From Cytophagaceae bacterium (GTDB taxonomy: Bacteria > Bacteroidota > Bacteroidia > Cytophagales > UBA9547), in contig JAIYAU010000018.1 of NCBI GenBank assembly GCA_027488865.1, positions 66,635-130,634 of the forward strand: a stretch of DNA of 64,000 nt, written 5' to 3'. Numbering within the stretch: position 1 is the first letter of the stretch; each line of letters starts with the position of its first letter. Below are positions 1-6,782 of this stretch, in pieces. Position numbers and translations under genes: made by a program. Under the pieces are notes generated by a model. It worked only from the letters and a program-made list of their open reading frames with translations. It had not been told where the DNA came from and searched no databases.

Positions 1-285
1 GTCATCTTTGGTGATCGAGTTTCTTTGGATCCAGGTAATAAGAATAGCAGTAAACAAACCTGCCAAAACAGCACCACCAAAAATGGCCAAAGGATTGTGA
101 CCAAAAAATAAAAATCCCGCTACAACACCAGGTAGTATAGCATGAGAAAGGGCATCGCCAATCAAGGCCATTCTCCGAAGGGTAACAAAACAACCCAAGA
201 TTCCACAAGTGATACCTACTATAATAGAGGCAATCAATGCGCGTATGGCGTACTCATGTTGAAATATGGCTAAAAAATCGTCCAT
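1..285 (-). CDS. metal ABC transporter permease, ABC-3 (ZnuB/MntB) family, partial
   Basis: N-terminal 95 codons of an inner-membrane permease; the rest lies beyond the left edge. Reading leftward from an ATG at 285, the protein begins MDDFLAIF and soon shows the family hallmark GCFVTLRRMALIGDALSHA, followed by LPGVVAGF. ABC-3 permeases move Zn, Mn or Fe across the inner membrane. The start lies 24 nt after the stop of the binding-protein/ATPase fusion, so the two are surely one operon and this is its channel subunit. The metal cannot be decided from the sequence. A different-frame ORF over the same bases is a shadow. Confidence 0.9.
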   Translation of the reverse strand, partial: MDDFLAIFQHEYAIRALIASIIVGITCGILGCFVTLRRMALIGDALSHAILPGVVAGFLFFGHNPLAIFGGAVLAGLFTAILITWIQRNSITKDD

Positions 286-309: not shown

Positions 310-2067
310 TTAGTCCAAAAATTTATCAACTTCTTGTAATATAGTAAGACGCCCTCCATAGGTCGCAGCTATATTCACATTGGTAAAGGTAGATTCCGTT
401 TCTCCAGCAGCAATCAATCGTTGGTTAATCATAATAACCGCGTCAAAATAGTCTTTCACCTTAGAGAGATCATGATGAATAATTAAAACGGTTTTTTTCT
501 CTTTCACCAAATTTTTAATCAAGGTTACAATCTTTTCTTCAGTATTTACATCAACGCCTACAAAAGGCTCATCAAACATTAAAATCTCGGCTTCTTCACA
601 TAAAGCTCTGGCAATGAAAACACGCTGCTGTTGTCCTCCAGATAAATCACTTATTTGTCTATCTTTAAACTCCAGCATACCTACCTTTTCTAATGCATCA
701 TATGCGATTTCTTCATCACTGAGCGTGTAGGTTTCAAATTGCTTTTTATGTGGTAGACGGCCAGTAATCACAATATCAATTACTGTAGCCGGAAAAGACC
801 AGTCAATATCTTCCTTTTGAGGAATGTAGGCGATTTTATCCCTTACCTCTTCAATAGGTCGTTGGTTAATGGTAATTTCTCCACTATCAGGTTTTACTAG
901 CCCTAATATGGATTTAAACAAGGTACTTTTGCCAGCACCATTTGGCCCTAACAAACCATATAATTTACCAGATTCTAGCGATAAGTTGATGTTAGAAAGT
1001 ACTGTTTTGCGATCATAAGAAGTAGATACATCATGAAGTTCAATGGTGTATTGACTCCAATTAAGTTTAACCTTTTTACCTTTTCTTATGTAAATTGATA
1101 GAATCATAAATCCAATTAGGAACAAAATACCAACCACCAAAAACATTGGAAGAAAAGAAATAGTATTGTTTACATTTGTAAACTCTGTATTTAATGCGGT
1201 CACAATTGTATTTGTGTTTTGCGTAAGCATATCTATATAAGTTGCTGCGCCGCTAAGTTCATCGCCTAAAGAATCTGAAAATAAACTTCCCCCGATAACT
1301 ACGCCATTATCTTGTGCTATTTGATTGATCAACTTAGGGTTGATGGTAGACTCAACAAAAATAGCGGGAATATTATAATCACGTATTATCTTGATTAACC
1401 TATTCATGTCTTCTATTTGCACTTCGGCATCAGTAGATGTACCAAGTGCTGCTTCCACTTTTAACTTATATCGTTTGCCATAATATTTAAATGCATCATG
1501 TGAGGTAATTAGTACCCGTTTTTTAGGAGGAATTTTGTTAAATTGTGTTTGGATGTACTTGTCAAGTATTAAAAGCTTTTTTTCAAATATTTTAAAATTT
1601 TCTTCATAACTTATAGCATGAGTAGGATCAAGATTGGAAAGTGCTTTGGCAATATTCTTTGCATAAATGATCCCATTAATTGGATCCATCCAAGCATGAG
1701 GGTCGGGAGAAGAATGGAAATTTACACTTAGAATAGGAGGGATGCCTTGTGTAACTTCAATTATAGGTCTACTTCCTCCAGCATTAACAATTAGTTCATC
1801 TAGCCAGCCTTCAAGGTGCAAACCATTCTTTAAAACCAAATTTGATTTTACCACCTTTTCGGCATCGGCACTATTGGGTTCATAAATATGTGGGTCGCCA
1901 CCAACAGGCATCAAACAAATTACATCTACTTTATCTCCAGCTATATTTTTGGTAATGTCATATATGATGGTGGTTGAGGTAAGTACAATGAGCTTGTTAG
2001 GTTTGGCGAATAGACTTGTAAAACCTAAAAGCCACAACGTGATGTATACAATTAATTTATGCCTCAT
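310..2067 (-). CDS. metal ABC transporter substrate-binding protein fused to ATP-binding subunit
   Basis: A 585-residue two-part protein. Residues 1-21 are a signal peptide. Residues about 25-290 are a TroA/ZnuA-type metal-binding domain with likely ligands H60 (GGDPHIYEP), H124 (PDPHAWMDP), H190 (TSHDAF) and an acidic residue near D265. A hydrophobic segment at about 304-326 ends in basic RKGKKVK. Residues about 340-585 are a complete ABC ATPase: Walker A GPNGAGKST (374-382), Q-loop Q417, signature LSGGQQQR (475-482), Walker B ILMFDEP (to 501) and H-loop near 532. The topology fits: binding domain outside, one helix, ATPase inside. These are normally two separate proteins. A His as third ligand resembles TroA/ZnuA more than PsaA-type Mn proteins, but metal choice is inference. 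It lies 3 nt after the regulator gene and 24 nt before the permease. Confidence 0.9.
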   Translation of the reverse strand: MRHKLIVYITLWLLGFTSLFAKPNKLIVLTSTTIIYDITKNIAGDKVDVICLMPVGGDPHIYEPNSADAEKVVKSNLVLKNGLHLEGWLDELIVNAGGSRPIIEVTQGIPPILSVNFHSSPDPHAWMDPINGIIYAKNIAKALSNLDPTHAISYEENFKIFEKKLLILDKYIQTQFNKIPPKKRVLITSHDAFKYYGKRYKLKVEAALGTSTDAEVQIEDMNRLIKIIRDYNIPAIFVESTINPKLINQIAQDNGVVIGGSLFSDSLGDELSGAATYIDMLTQNTNTIVTALNTEFTNVNNTISFLPMFLVVGILFLIGFMILSIYIRKGKKVKLNWSQYTIELHDVSTSYDRKTVLSNINLSLESGKLYGLLGPNGAGKSTLFKSILGLVKPDSGEITINQRPIEEVRDKIAYIPQKEDIDWSFPATVIDIVITGRLPHKKQFETYTLSDEEIAYDALEKVGMLEFKDRQISDLSGGQQQRVFIARALCEEAEILMFDEPFVGVDVNTEEKIVTLIKNLVKEKKTVLIIHHDLSKVKDYFDAVIMINQRLIAAGETESTFTNVNIAATYGGRLTILQEVDKFLD

Positions 2068-2070
2068 AAT

Positions 2071-2733
2071 CTACCTTGTTACAAAAATATTCTTCGAAAC
2101 CTCCTTCGATATTGAAATGGTTTTTATGTTGTCTATTTCAATTTCTAAAGAATTATCAAAAGAGACTTTATCAATTACTTTAATTTTAACACCAATCTTC
2201 AAACCCACTTTGTCACAATATTGAAGAAATGCTACACCTGCTTCTTTTACATTGGACAAAAAACCAATATCATTAATGGTCAGATCACAGAGTCCAATTT
2301 GTGGTTTTTCACGCAAGAGCCCGTCCGCTCCTGGAATAGGGTCGCCATGTGGATCATATTTTGGAAATCCTAAGAAATGGTCTAATCTTTCAATTAATAA
2401 GTTAGATTGAATATGTTCTAGTTCTTCAGCTACATCATGCACTTCATCCCAATTGAATTTTAACTTTTCTACTAGGAAGACTTCCCACAGTCGATGTTTT
2501 CTTACTATTTTTAAAGCACATGATTTACCTTGGTCTGTTATTTCTACCCCATAGTATTTTACATAATTGATCATTTCCTTCTGAGAAAGTTTTTTCAACA
2601 TATCACTCACAGACGCTGGTTTGGTGTTGAGCATTTCAGCAATCTCATTGGTAGTAATACATTCTTTGCCTAAATAGGAAAGATGATAAATAGCCTTTAA
2701 ATAATTTTCTTCTGTGTAGCTTAAGGAAATCAT
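2071..2733 (-). CDS. DtxR/MntR-family metal-dependent transcriptional regulator
   Basis: A 220-residue DtxR-family protein. Residues about 5-65 are a winged helix (TEENYLKAIYHL start, recognition region TKPASVSDMLKKLSQKEM). The dimerisation and metal-binding domain contains HDVAEELEHIQS and the family segment FPKYDPHGDPIP. Residues about 150-220 are an SH3-like FeoA domain. Such proteins sense Mn or Fe and repress uptake genes when the metal is plentiful. It is the first gene of the operon, 3 nt before the transporter fusion, so autoregulation is likely. Whether it senses Mn, Fe or Zn is not shown by the sequence. Confidence 0.9.
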   Translation of the reverse strand: MISLSYTEENYLKAIYHLSYLGKECITTNEIAEMLNTKPASVSDMLKKLSQKEMINYVKYYGVEITDQGKSCALKIVRKHRLWEVFLVEKLKFNWDEVHDVAEELEHIQSNLLIERLDHFLGFPKYDPHGDPIPGADGLLREKPQIGLCDLTINDIGFLSNVKEAGVAFLQYCDKVGLKIGVKIKVIDKVSFDNSLEIEIDNIKTISISKEVSKNIFVTR

Positions 2734-2831: not shown

Positions 2832-3968
2832 TTATTTAAGTATGTTAGATACTATATTTTGAACTAATTCAGAATCGAAATAAATGGAATTATTGGAAAA
2901 AGTCTTTTTATAAAACTTAGTTTCAATTAAGTTATGGTACAGTTCGTTACAATTTATTTTATCAAAATCTATGCAAATTCCAGCATTATATTCTTCCATA
3001 AGCTGACTCCAATTATCATTTATAGAGGTTAATATAATGGTTTTCAAGGCAATACATTCATAGAACTTAGTAGGAATTCTGTTTAGCGTACTTAAATTAT
3101 GTTGGTAAGGAGCAAGAACCACATCCGCCTGATGAATTTTTAGTAGTATCTCTTCATGAGGTACTAAGGTATCACCACCTATTAAAGTAATACATGAACT
3201 TAAATCAACTTCCTTCTTAATGTTTATAAGTAATTGATTTGAAGCACAATATCCTATTATAATTAAACTAACGTTTGTGTGTATTTGTTGTAGTTTTTTG
3301 GTAAATTGGATTGCTTCTAAGATACCATAACTCTCATGTATAGTTCCGGTATATAACAGTTTTAATTCTTTAGTAGGACTTATGTTATGTTTTTGGGGTA
3401 GTTCTTTAATTAATTTATTAAACTTGACTTTGTTTTCCACTACGGTGTAGTTTTTTTTTATGAAAGGCAGTTCATTTTTATAACATTTTTCTGCCAAAAT
3501 AAAGTGTGAAATAGCAGGAGCAAAGATGATTTCTTTCATTCTCACATAAAATGCCACAGCATGCCTTATAATTGGACTAAACGTATTGGTATATAGTATG
3601 TTAGCAAAATAGTTTTCCTGGATATCGTAAATTATTTTAGTGCCAAATAAAATTTTGTAGATAAACGTAACTATCAGTAATTCATGGGTACAAACTATTA
3701 CTACTTTAGGTTTTAGTTTAAGTAAAAGTTTTATGTATTTAAAAGGAGCAAATATTCTTGATATGTCCAATCTTCTAAAGTTAAAAATGGGATAAAAATG
3801 AATATTAGGGTAAATTTTTTTTTCGTTAATATTTTGCCCAATAATATGAATGTTGTAATGTTGCAATGAACTTAGTGACATGCCTAGTTTTTCAAACATC
3901 CGTGTGTCGTTAATGGGTTTGAGTACAGAGGCAATTACAATATTTATGAGGGTAAGTTGGTGTTTCAT
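2832..3968 (-). CDS. glycosyltransferase, GT4-like
   Basis: A 378-residue protein of GT-B fold. The C-terminal half has the recognisable donor-binding region: LLYTGTIHESYGILEAI, then IIIGY, ADVVLAPYQHN and IPTKFYECIALKTIILTS, matching the EX7E-type region of family 4 transferases. The N-terminal half is the less conserved acceptor domain with VVIVCTHELL. It probably transfers a sugar in surface polysaccharide or glycoconjugate synthesis at the cytoplasmic face of the inner membrane. It stands alone, divergent from dapD and 98 nt from the metal operon. Donor and acceptor cannot be read from the sequence. Confidence 0.8.
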   Translation of the reverse strand: MKHQLTLINIVIASVLKPINDTRMFEKLGMSLSSLQHYNIHIIGQNINEKKIYPNIHFYPIFNFRRLDISRIFAPFKYIKLLLKLKPKVVIVCTHELLIVTFIYKILFGTKIIYDIQENYFANILYTNTFSPIIRHAVAFYVRMKEIIFAPAISHFILAEKCYKNELPFIKKNYTVVENKVKFNKLIKELPQKHNISPTKELKLLYTGTIHESYGILEAIQFTKKLQQIHTNVSLIIIGYCASNQLLINIKKEVDLSSCITLIGGDTLVPHEEILLKIHQADVVLAPYQHNLSTLNRIPTKFYECIALKTIILTSINDNWSQLMEEYNAGICIDFDKINCNELYHNLIETKFYKKTFSNNSIYFDSELVQNIVSNILK

Positions 3969-4059
3969 AAGTACAATTAAGGCAGCATAAACTAAAAATC
4001 AAAATTATTAATCAAAACTCAAATCAGTATAAGTATTTCAGTTTTAAAAATTATTATCA

Positions 4060-4875
4060 ATGGAATTAAAAGATATTATAGAAAAAGCATGGAGTGATCG
4101 TTCCTTGTTGTCAGAAAAAGAAGTAGAAGTGGCGATTAAAACAGTCATTGATGAGTTAGATAGGGGGGTTCGTAGAGTGGCAGAGCCATTGCCGAATGGA
4201 GAGTGGCAAGTAAATGAATGGATCAAAAAGGCGGTAATTTTATATTTTCCTTTAAAAAAGATGACTACCATGGAATGTGGTCCATTTGAATATTATGATA
4301 AAATGGCCCTAAAAAAGGGTTATGAGCAATTAGGCGTGAGGGTAGTTCCTCCAGCTGTGGCTCGATATGGTGCATTTATATCTAAAGGAGTAATTTTGAT
4401 GCCTTCTTATGTAAACATAGGTGCGTATGTAAATGAAGGTACGATGGTGGACACTTGGGCTACGGTTGGTAGCTGTGCTCAAATAGGCAAAAATGTACAT
4501 TTGAGTGGTGGAGTGGGTATAGGTGGTGTTTTAGAACCGGTTCAAGCCTCCCCAGTTATAGTTGAGGATGGAGCATTTATAGGATCAAGATGTATAATTG
4601 TGGAAGGCGCCCGCATTGGACAGGAAGCTGTTTTAGGATCGAACGTCGTTGTAACTGGTAGTTCTAAGGTAATAGATATAACTGGTAATGAACCAGTTGA
4701 ATACAAAGGTTATGTACCTGCGCGCTCGGTGGTGATTCCGGGTTCATATACTAAAAAATTCCCAGCTGGCGAATACCAAGTTTCTTGTGCCTTAATTATA
4801 GGACAACGCAAAGAGAGTACAGATTTAAAGACCTCCTTAAACGAAGCTTTAAGAGAAAATAATGTAGCTGTTTAA
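4060..4875 (+). CDS. dapD: 2,3,4,5-tetrahydropyridine-2,6-dicarboxylate N-succinyltransferase
   Basis: 271 residues, the usual DapD length. The enzyme adds succinyl from succinyl-CoA to tetrahydrodipicolinate in the succinylase branch of lysine and diaminopimelate synthesis. The C-terminal half is a left-handed beta helix of hexapeptide repeats (SYVNIGAYVNEGTMVDTWATV, then GVGIGGVLEP and AFIGSRCIIVEGARIG). The N-terminal part carries WIKKAVILYF and the PPAVARYGAF segment typical of the family. It is a single-gene unit, divergent from the glycosyltransferase and closed by a strong hairpin. Confidence 0.96.
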   Translation: MELKDIIEKAWSDRSLLSEKEVEVAIKTVIDELDRGVRRVAEPLPNGEWQVNEWIKKAVILYFPLKKMTTMECGPFEYYDKMALKKGYEQLGVRVVPPAVARYGAFISKGVILMPSYVNIGAYVNEGTMVDTWATVGSCAQIGKNVHLSGGVGIGGVLEPVQASPVIVEDGAFIGSRCIIVEGARIGQEAVLGSNVVVTGSSKVIDITGNEPVEYKGYVPARSVVIPGSYTKKFPAGEYQVSCALIIGQRKESTDLKTSLNEALRENNVAV

Positions 4876-4890
4876 TTTATTTTAACAGAA

Positions 4891-4926
4891 AAAGCCCTTC
4901 AAATGTGTTTTTGAGGGGCTTTGTTT
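4891..4926 (+). terminator. rho-independent terminator after dapD
   Basis: A 13-bp stem (4891-4903 with 4910-4922, one G-T pair, core AAGCCC/GGGGCTT) with a 6-nt loop, followed by a short T-rich run. It lies 15 nt past the dapD stop. It covers the TTG at 4921, which argues against using that codon as the start of lpxK. Confidence 0.8.
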
Positions 4927-4938
4927 ATTTCTAAACCT

Positions 4939-5964
4939 ATGAAAGTTCTTTATCCTTTATCATTACTATATTTTTTGGCAATAAAAATACGTAATTGGTT
5001 ATTTGATAAGGGTATATATAAAGAATATCAATTTAGTGTTAAAACCATCAATGTAGGCAATCTTACCGTAGGAGGAACGGGAAAAACTCCACATGTGGAA
5101 TATTTAATTCGTCTTCTCAATCCTTCCAAGAAAATAGCAACTTTAAGCAGAGGATATGGACGTAAAACTAAAGGATTTTTAGAGGCCACTGAAACAAGTA
5201 CAGCTGAAGAGATTGGGGATGAGCCTTTACAATTTTACAAGAAATTTCATAATAAAGTTAACGTTACAGTAGGAGAGGAGAGACTTTTTGCAATTCCAAA
5301 AATATTGGATTTACATCCACATATTAATGTAATACTTTTGGACGATGCGTATCAACATAGATTTGTAAAACCCCATATCAATATACTACTTACAGATTAT
5401 AATCTGTTATTTTACAATGATTTAATGTTGCCAGCTGGAAGACTGCGAGAAGATGCAGCTGGTGCAAGCCGTGCCAACATAATTGTGGTCTCTAAATGCC
5501 CCAGCCAGTTAGCAGATACAACTACAAACCAAATAACAGAAAAGATAAAAAAATACAATCCAAAGGCTCCTGTTTTCTTTAGCAGTATACGATATTTATC
5601 GCCAGTTTCTTTGTTTGATAATTTTAAAGAAATTAATAAAGATGTGATTGTACTTACTGGAATTGCAAAGGCAAATCTAATGCTAGAATTTATCAGGAAG
5701 TCACACAACGTGCTCCACCATTTGGAATTTAACGATCATCATGCCTATACAAAAGAGGATATGCAACAACTCATAAAGGTTTTTAACAATTATCCTCCCA
5801 AAACAACAAGCATTATCACCACTGAGAAGGATATGGTGAAGTTAACAGATGTCGCATTAAGAGAATTCATTGAAAATCTTCCTATTTATTATCTGCCCAT
5901 TGAAATATACTTTTTAAAAGATGAGCAAAGATTTAATGAACTTATAATTAATGGTTTAAATTAA
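4939..5964 (+). CDS. lpxK: tetraacyldisaccharide 4'-kinase
   Basis: 341 residues from the ATG at 4939. A longer frame opens at TTG 4921, but that codon lies inside the dapD terminator. LpxK phosphorylates the 4' position of the lipid A disaccharide at the inner membrane. The P-loop reads GNLTVGGTGKTPHVEYL, followed by LSRGYGRKTKG, GDEPLQFYKK and LDDAYQHRFV (the family's DDGFQH-like motif), then PAGRLREDAAGASRA. The N-terminus has a hydrophobic anchor (PLSLLYFLAIKIRNWLF). The HAD phosphatase gene follows after 14 nt, so they are probably cotranscribed. Confidence 0.96.
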   Translation: MKVLYPLSLLYFLAIKIRNWLFDKGIYKEYQFSVKTINVGNLTVGGTGKTPHVEYLIRLLNPSKKIATLSRGYGRKTKGFLEATETSTAEEIGDEPLQFYKKFHNKVNVTVGEERLFAIPKILDLHPHINVILLDDAYQHRFVKPHINILLTDYNLLFYNDLMLPAGRLREDAAGASRANIIVVSKCPSQLADTTTNQITEKIKKYNPKAPVFFSSIRYLSPVSLFDNFKEINKDVIVLTGIAKANLMLEFIRKSHNVLHHLEFNDHHAYTKEDMQQLIKVFNNYPPKTTSIITTEKDMVKLTDVALREFIENLPIYYLPIEIYFLKDEQRFNELIINGLN

Positions 5965-5978
5965 AATTAAAAGATATA

Positions 5979-6782
5979 ATGAAGTATAAAATGGTAGTAT
6001 TGGATATGGATGATACCTTATTAAATGATGATCATCAAATATCCGTCAGAAACAAAAAAGCAATACTTAAAGCTCAACAGAAGGGAGTTTATGTAGTATT
6101 GGCCAGTGGGAGACCCACACCAGCTATGATTCTCTATGCACAAGAGTTGGAATTAGATATAAATGATTCATATCTCTTGTCTTATAATGGTGCACAAATA
6201 CTTCAAGTGAGATCTCAAAAGGTGATTTTTGAACAAAATCTAGATCTAAACGATGTCTATCAACTAACTGACTATTGCAAACAGTACCATGTTGATATTA
6301 TTACCTACCTTGATCATAAAATAATTTCAGAAAAAACATCACCATATATAGAAATTGAAAAATCAATCACAGGAATGGACTTGTTGATTGTTCCAGATTT
6401 TAAAGAATTTGTTAGACAATCAGTTACTAAGTGTTTATTGCTTTCAGAACCTAGCCATTTAGCTAGCGTAACACCTACTTTACAATCATTAATGCCACAT
6501 CTAAATATTACAACCTCCAAGCCATTTTTTCTTGAAGTTACCCAAAAAGGAATAGATAAGGCTGCAAGCTTGGCAAAACTAGGATTTGAACTGAACATTA
6601 AACCTGAGGAAATGATTGCCGTCGGAAATGCCAGCAATGATCTTTCCATGATCCAATTTGCTGGCCTTGGTATTTGGGTGGATAATGTGCAACCCGACCT
6701 TAGAGATAAAGCCCAAGTTATAGTTTCTTCAAATAATGACGATGGTGTAGCCGAGGCAATTGAAAAATATATTCTTGATTAA
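5979..6782 (+). CDS. HAD-superfamily phosphatase, Cof type
   Basis: A 267-residue Cof/YidA-like HAD hydrolase. Motif I is VLDMDDTLLND with the nucleophile Asp, motif II is VLASGRPTP, the Lys of motif III is in KGIDKAASLAKLG, and motif IV is VGNASNDLSMIQFAG. It has a C2-type cap between motifs II and III. Members dephosphorylate sugar phosphates, flavin mononucleotide or pyridoxal phosphate with broad specificity, so the substrate is not predicted. It follows lpxK by 14 nt; a functional link is not obvious. Confidence 0.9.
   Translation: MKYKMVVLDMDDTLLNDDHQISVRNKKAILKAQQKGVYVVLASGRPTPAMILYAQELELDINDSYLLSYNGAQILQVRSQKVIFEQNLDLNDVYQLTDYCKQYHVDIITYLDHKIISEKTSPYIEIEKSITGMDLLIVPDFKEFVRQSVTKCLLLSEPSHLASVTPTLQSLMPHLNITTSKPFFLEVTQKGIDKAASLAKLGFELNIKPEEMIAVGNASNDLSMIQFAGLGIWVDNVQPDLRDKAQVIVSSNNDDGVAEAIEKYILD

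Follow-up and report, generated by a model that had tools for sequence, protein, structure and literature searches.

Genes at the locus

The window (the whole stretch of DNA analysed, 64,000 nucleotides from a Cytophagaceae bacterium) carries a gene that encodes a metal-binding protein and an ABC ATPase in one chain, flanked by genes for a metal-dependent regulator and an ABC-3 permease (Table 1). The fusion gene forms a single open frame of 585 amino acids, with an ATG start and no internal stops. In Pfam searches, the ZnuA profile (PF01297) was matched over its full length (E = 3.6e-82), and ABC_tran (PF00005) covered residues 357–502 (E = 1.8e-34). The original prediction that a binding domain and an ATPase share one 585-residue polypeptide was borne out by the open frame, by these Pfam matches, and by 32 further genomes.

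Table 1. Features of the fusion locus, with positions in the window; residue numbers refer to the fusion protein.
Feature	Position	Strand	Evidence
SBP-TM-NBD fusion gene	310..2067	-	Single open frame; Pfam ZnuA and ABC_tran; conserved across 32 further genomes of the sample
Predicted N-terminal signal peptide, residues 1–22 (...LFA/KP), without lipobox cysteine	2002..2067	-	Sequence
TroA/ZnuA-type metal-binding domain, residues 28–291	1195..1986	-	Pfam; ligand columns; Foldseek
Single transmembrane helix, residues 305–329, then basic stretch	1081..1155	-	AlphaFold2 model; hydropathy and charge test
ABC ATPase domain, residues 342–571	355..1044	-	Pfam, NCBIfam, motif table, Foldseek
MntR/DtxR-type metal-dependent regulator with FeoA domain	2071..2733	-	Pfam Fe_dep_repress, Fe_dep_repr_C, FeoA
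Cognate ABC-3 permease, first 95 residues in window	1..285	-	Pfam; full gene read from whole genome
Candidate DtxR-type operator TTAGGATTGTCTAA	2789..2802	.	Consensus match alone; upstream of regulator

A lipobox-like cysteine, present in canonical relatives, was absent from the signal peptide of the fusion. The AlphaFold2 model of the protein had a mean pLDDT of 84 and comprised two well-formed domains and the helix; with a pTM of 0.50, it defines the single domains and not their mutual placement. Foldseek likewise matched single domains, namely YfeA, MtsA, PsaA, and TroA for the binding domain and, as the best solved relative of the ATPase domain, the PsaBC NBD (7kyp). None of the structure matches listed was a solved chain spanning both domains.

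The metal ligands H60, H124, H190, and D265 (His3Asp), the ligand set of TroA, were invariant in 39 of the 39 aligned rows. In the ATPase domain, Walker A (residues 374–382) and the signature (residues 475–482) were located, and Walker B and the H-loop were also present. A motif table found Walker A, Q-loop, LSGGQ, Walker B, and H-loop in every member, whether fused or split. With all its catalytic motifs kept, the ATPase of the fusion looks intact.

The window opens within a minus-strand operon. The regulator gene sits 3 bases upstream of the fusion; the permease gene starts 24 bases downstream of it and runs past the window edge. Read from the whole genome, the latter gene (L002:3430-4920, minus strand) encodes 496 amino acids, matches PF00950 (E = 1.9e-72), contains a GDALSHAILPG motif, and ends in a tail made of a DtxR-like metal-binding/dimerisation domain (Fe_dep_repr_C) and a FeoA domain. 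In this genome, the fused copy is the sole ZnuA-family domain, and a single full-length ABC-3 permease is encoded besides one weak 21-bit match elsewhere.

Occurrence of the fusion and layout of its linker

With a profile built from seven fusions, we searched 395 genomes of the class, 390 of the order, and 345 of the phylum, the last sample largely repeating that of the class. Complete fusions, each verified by domain search, were identified in 33 genomes including that of the window, belonging to nine families of the same class (f1, f3, f9, f23, f37, f70, f79, f84, and f95). This number is a lower bound, three candidates having been scored per genome, and three more fusions were cut off by contig ends. 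Named carriers include an uncultured Cytophagales bacterium (L034) and a Bacteroidia bacterium (L035). The two domains were separated by exactly one helix in all of the complete fusions (33/33), and the fused copy was the sole ZnuA-family domain of its genome (33/33).

Beyond Bacteroidota, coverage consisted of one pattern scan and a plasmid collection (72,556 records), among whose 20 best matches none was annotated as a fusion; the loci read further had separate genes. Long open frames of 572–620 amino acids at canonical ATPase matches (L074, L096, and L101–L103 checked) proved to be separate adjacent genes in one frame, and were rejected as fusions.

That an assembly or sequencing error joined two genes is practically negligible as an explanation. 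Ordinary systems do have both genes adjacent and in the same order, and a lost stop could mimic a fusion, but 33 independent genomes, at 49–61% identity or less, share this in-frame junction and its membrane helix; an assembly error is ruled out by these conserved fusions. The many fusions with the same linker helix anticipated at the outset were thus recovered, and the opposite case, in which homologues are always split and the junction is an error, fails.

The helix, initially placed at about residues 304–326, was recovered within a few residues of that position (306–324 by hydropathy, in a frame numbered one residue longer, and 305–329 in the AlphaFold2 model), and was the only hydrophobic helix between the two domains. 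The charges that follow it are solely K/R (SIYIRKGKKVK). Across 38 proteins, K/R residues amounted to 2.84 per 15 residues after the helix versus 1.42 before it (Wilcoxon, p = 1.5e-5). Because basic residues are commoner after the helix than before it, the binding domain is predicted to lie outside, in the periplasm, and the ATPase inside, in the cytoplasm, in agreement with the positive-inside orientation first proposed.

The length of the periplasmic linker, from binding domain to helix, varied among members between 8 and 70 residues. The cytoplasmic linker was near 19 residues, usually 15–28, with 52 in one member. A variable periplasmic and a steady cytoplasmic length would be as expected for a flexible tether on the outside. 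In two members (L116 and L117), low-complexity repeats (GSGAQQET and RNNDRNN) stretch the periplasmic tether to 57–70 residues.

Split relatives and evolutionary history

The five nearest relatives with separate genes (L036, L037, L112, L113, and L115) belong to Saprospiraceae (L036 and L037) and one more family. In these split forms, the binding protein ends in a C-terminal hydrophobic helix and the ATPase is encoded by a separate gene; L115 has the weakest C-terminal helix, and its ATPase lies on another contig. Such arrangements indicate that covalent joining of binding protein and ATPase is dispensable.

Fused and split forms fell into one supported group in the SBP tree (99/96) and in the permease tree (99/98), and in both trees this group stood apart from the ordinary Bacteroidota lipoprotein systems. 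In the concatenated tree, the split forms were nested inside the fused ones (98/98), and constraining the fused forms together cost 9.5 log units, with a borderline AU p of 0.0485. Because of this nesting, one fusion followed by one re-split would be the simplest reading of the history, the alternative being two fusions from a helix-anchored ancestor. A split ancestral state appears less likely, although this is borderline given the AU value and a less clear ATPase tree; the latter, taken alone, placed the split group beside canonical ones (87/86), with long branches.

The ordinary Bacteroidota TroABC-type system (for example, L010, L017, L072, and L090) has, as here, a DtxR-family regulator, a binding protein, an ATPase, and a permease with a DtxR tail. 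It differs in its separate lipoprotein SBP and ATPase, and forms a distinct clade in the SBP and permease trees. Derivation of the fusion from this system was rejected, as both trees place the fused clade nearer to Bacillota and plasmid-borne systems.

The split relatives also bear on whether the fusion is a polyprotein, that is, one chain that a protease cuts into two products, a binding protein anchored in the membrane and an ATPase on its own. These are exactly the two products that split relatives make, and in one of them (L112:4200-4340) only TAA-ATG lies, in the same frame, between the helix-anchored binding protein and the ATPase. In Chlamydia, the binding protein YtgA and the ATPase YtgB are separate proteins, and the fused pair is YtgC-YtgR, an ABC-3 permease with a C-terminal DtxR-like domain, the same layout as in the neighbouring permease here. 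Cleavage of YtgC, on which a polyprotein would be modelled, is documented, and permease-repressor fusions of this kind are reported in 11 phyla (PMC5599777). However, no conserved cleavage motif was noticed in the fusions, whose linkers differ in sequence and length, and were cutting the rule, in-frame joining over nine families would be needless. We consider a polyprotein unlikely.

Proposed function and transport cycle

The fusion is probably one half of a metal ABC importer of cluster A-I (TroA/PsaA/ZnuA), whose binding protein and ATPase would form one tethered inner-membrane protein. It shares with PsaABC, TroABCD, MntABC, and ZnuABC of this cluster the three domain families, the metal ligands of TroA, and a DtxR-family regulator, and many tro/mnt operons have the same SBP-ATPase-permease order. 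In cluster A-I importers, however, either a lipoprotein of its own or a free periplasmic protein does the binding, whereas here the binding protein is joined by a helix to the ATPase. We treat this departure as a variant feature and not as an exclusion, given that transporters with an SBP fused to the permease count as importers. In the type I ABC importers OpuA and GlnPQ, two or more binding domains per transporter are covalently tethered (PMC11065425, PMC8025302). These systems import osmolytes and amino acids and have the binding domain joined to the permease, whereas the present one would import metal, has its binding domain joined to the ATPase, and has its permease encoded by a separate gene. 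No description of an SBP-helix-ATPase fusion was found in a search of mainly open-access literature.

Every one of the 13 genomes tested had one full-length ABC-3 permease. The DALSH/DALAH motif was present in all but one permease of the fused and split set, and most permeases of the fused clade carried the DtxR-like and FeoA tail, which was absent from three (L047, L060, and L068). The Asp/His motif of the permease corresponds to Asp46/His50 of PsaB, which are metal ligands (PMC11779740). The proposed order of regulator, fusion, and permease held in the window and in many relatives but was not constant: the permease did not adjoin the fusion and lay on another contig in several cases (L041, L042, and L043; genomes G002, G004, G007, G009, G183, and G398), so that operon linkage appears unnecessary.

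The fusion could also be read not as a transporter subunit but as a metal receptor that spans the membrane and uses its ATPase for signalling. A binding domain, one helix, and a cytoplasmic domain make up a receptor-like layout, and several genomes lack linkage between the permease and the fusion. Nevertheless, the ATPase is an importer-type NBD with PsaBC as best solved relative, a single full-length matching permease is encoded in the genome, with no second ZnuA-family binding protein, and in the window, as in many relatives, the genes are arranged as in an importer operon. A receptor role thus seems very unlikely.

The solved structure of PsaBC shows a homodimer built from permease and ATPase subunits (PMC11779740), so that a fused ATPase would bring two binding domains per transporter. 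In the tethered importer that we propose, two fusions and two permease subunits would assemble, giving each transporter a pair of tethered binding domains and a pair of additional helices. The binding domains would dock on the permease in turn, probably one at a time, at a rate set by local concentration instead of diffusion. This tethered cycle is what we infer for the fusion importer. It is quite unlikely that, in addition, the linker helix relays outside docking or metal binding directly to the ATPase, beside the permease path, with a binding protein that never leaves the transporter; if true, such coupling would make for a transport cycle that has no described counterpart among ABC importers.

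The binding protein of well-studied metal importers is either free to diffuse or held by a lipid anchor, and there is debate on whether it needs to come off between cycles. In the present group, evolution has maintained its covalent link with the ATPase across nine or more families, in which it is the sole ZnuA-family binding protein. Covalent joining would fix two binding domains per transporter, and the natural variation in periplasmic linker length offers a direct way to test whether dissociation is needed. The group also records how a fusion arose and was apparently split again, and it provides a system, contained in one operon, whose two main transporter proteins are both multi-domain fusions.

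Mn(II) is the likely metal; Zn and Fe are possible alternatives. Manganese is favoured because the regulator is of MntR type, no Nramp Mn importer was found in the genome of the window, and FeoB and ZIP are present in that genome; the His3Asp ligand set also occurs in Zn-binding proteins. MntR would repress expression when metal is plentiful. The box TTAGGATTGTCTAA, the sole one of its type in the window, resembles DtxR-family operators and is a possible binding site. Similar boxes were observed upstream of about 7 of the approximately 24 regulators for which 200 upstream bases were usable, with about 0.01 expected for each (mononucleotide shuffles). Further upstream (2832–6782), a glycosyltransferase (Pfam) is followed by genes whose translations resemble DapD, LpxK, and a HAD-family hydrolase.
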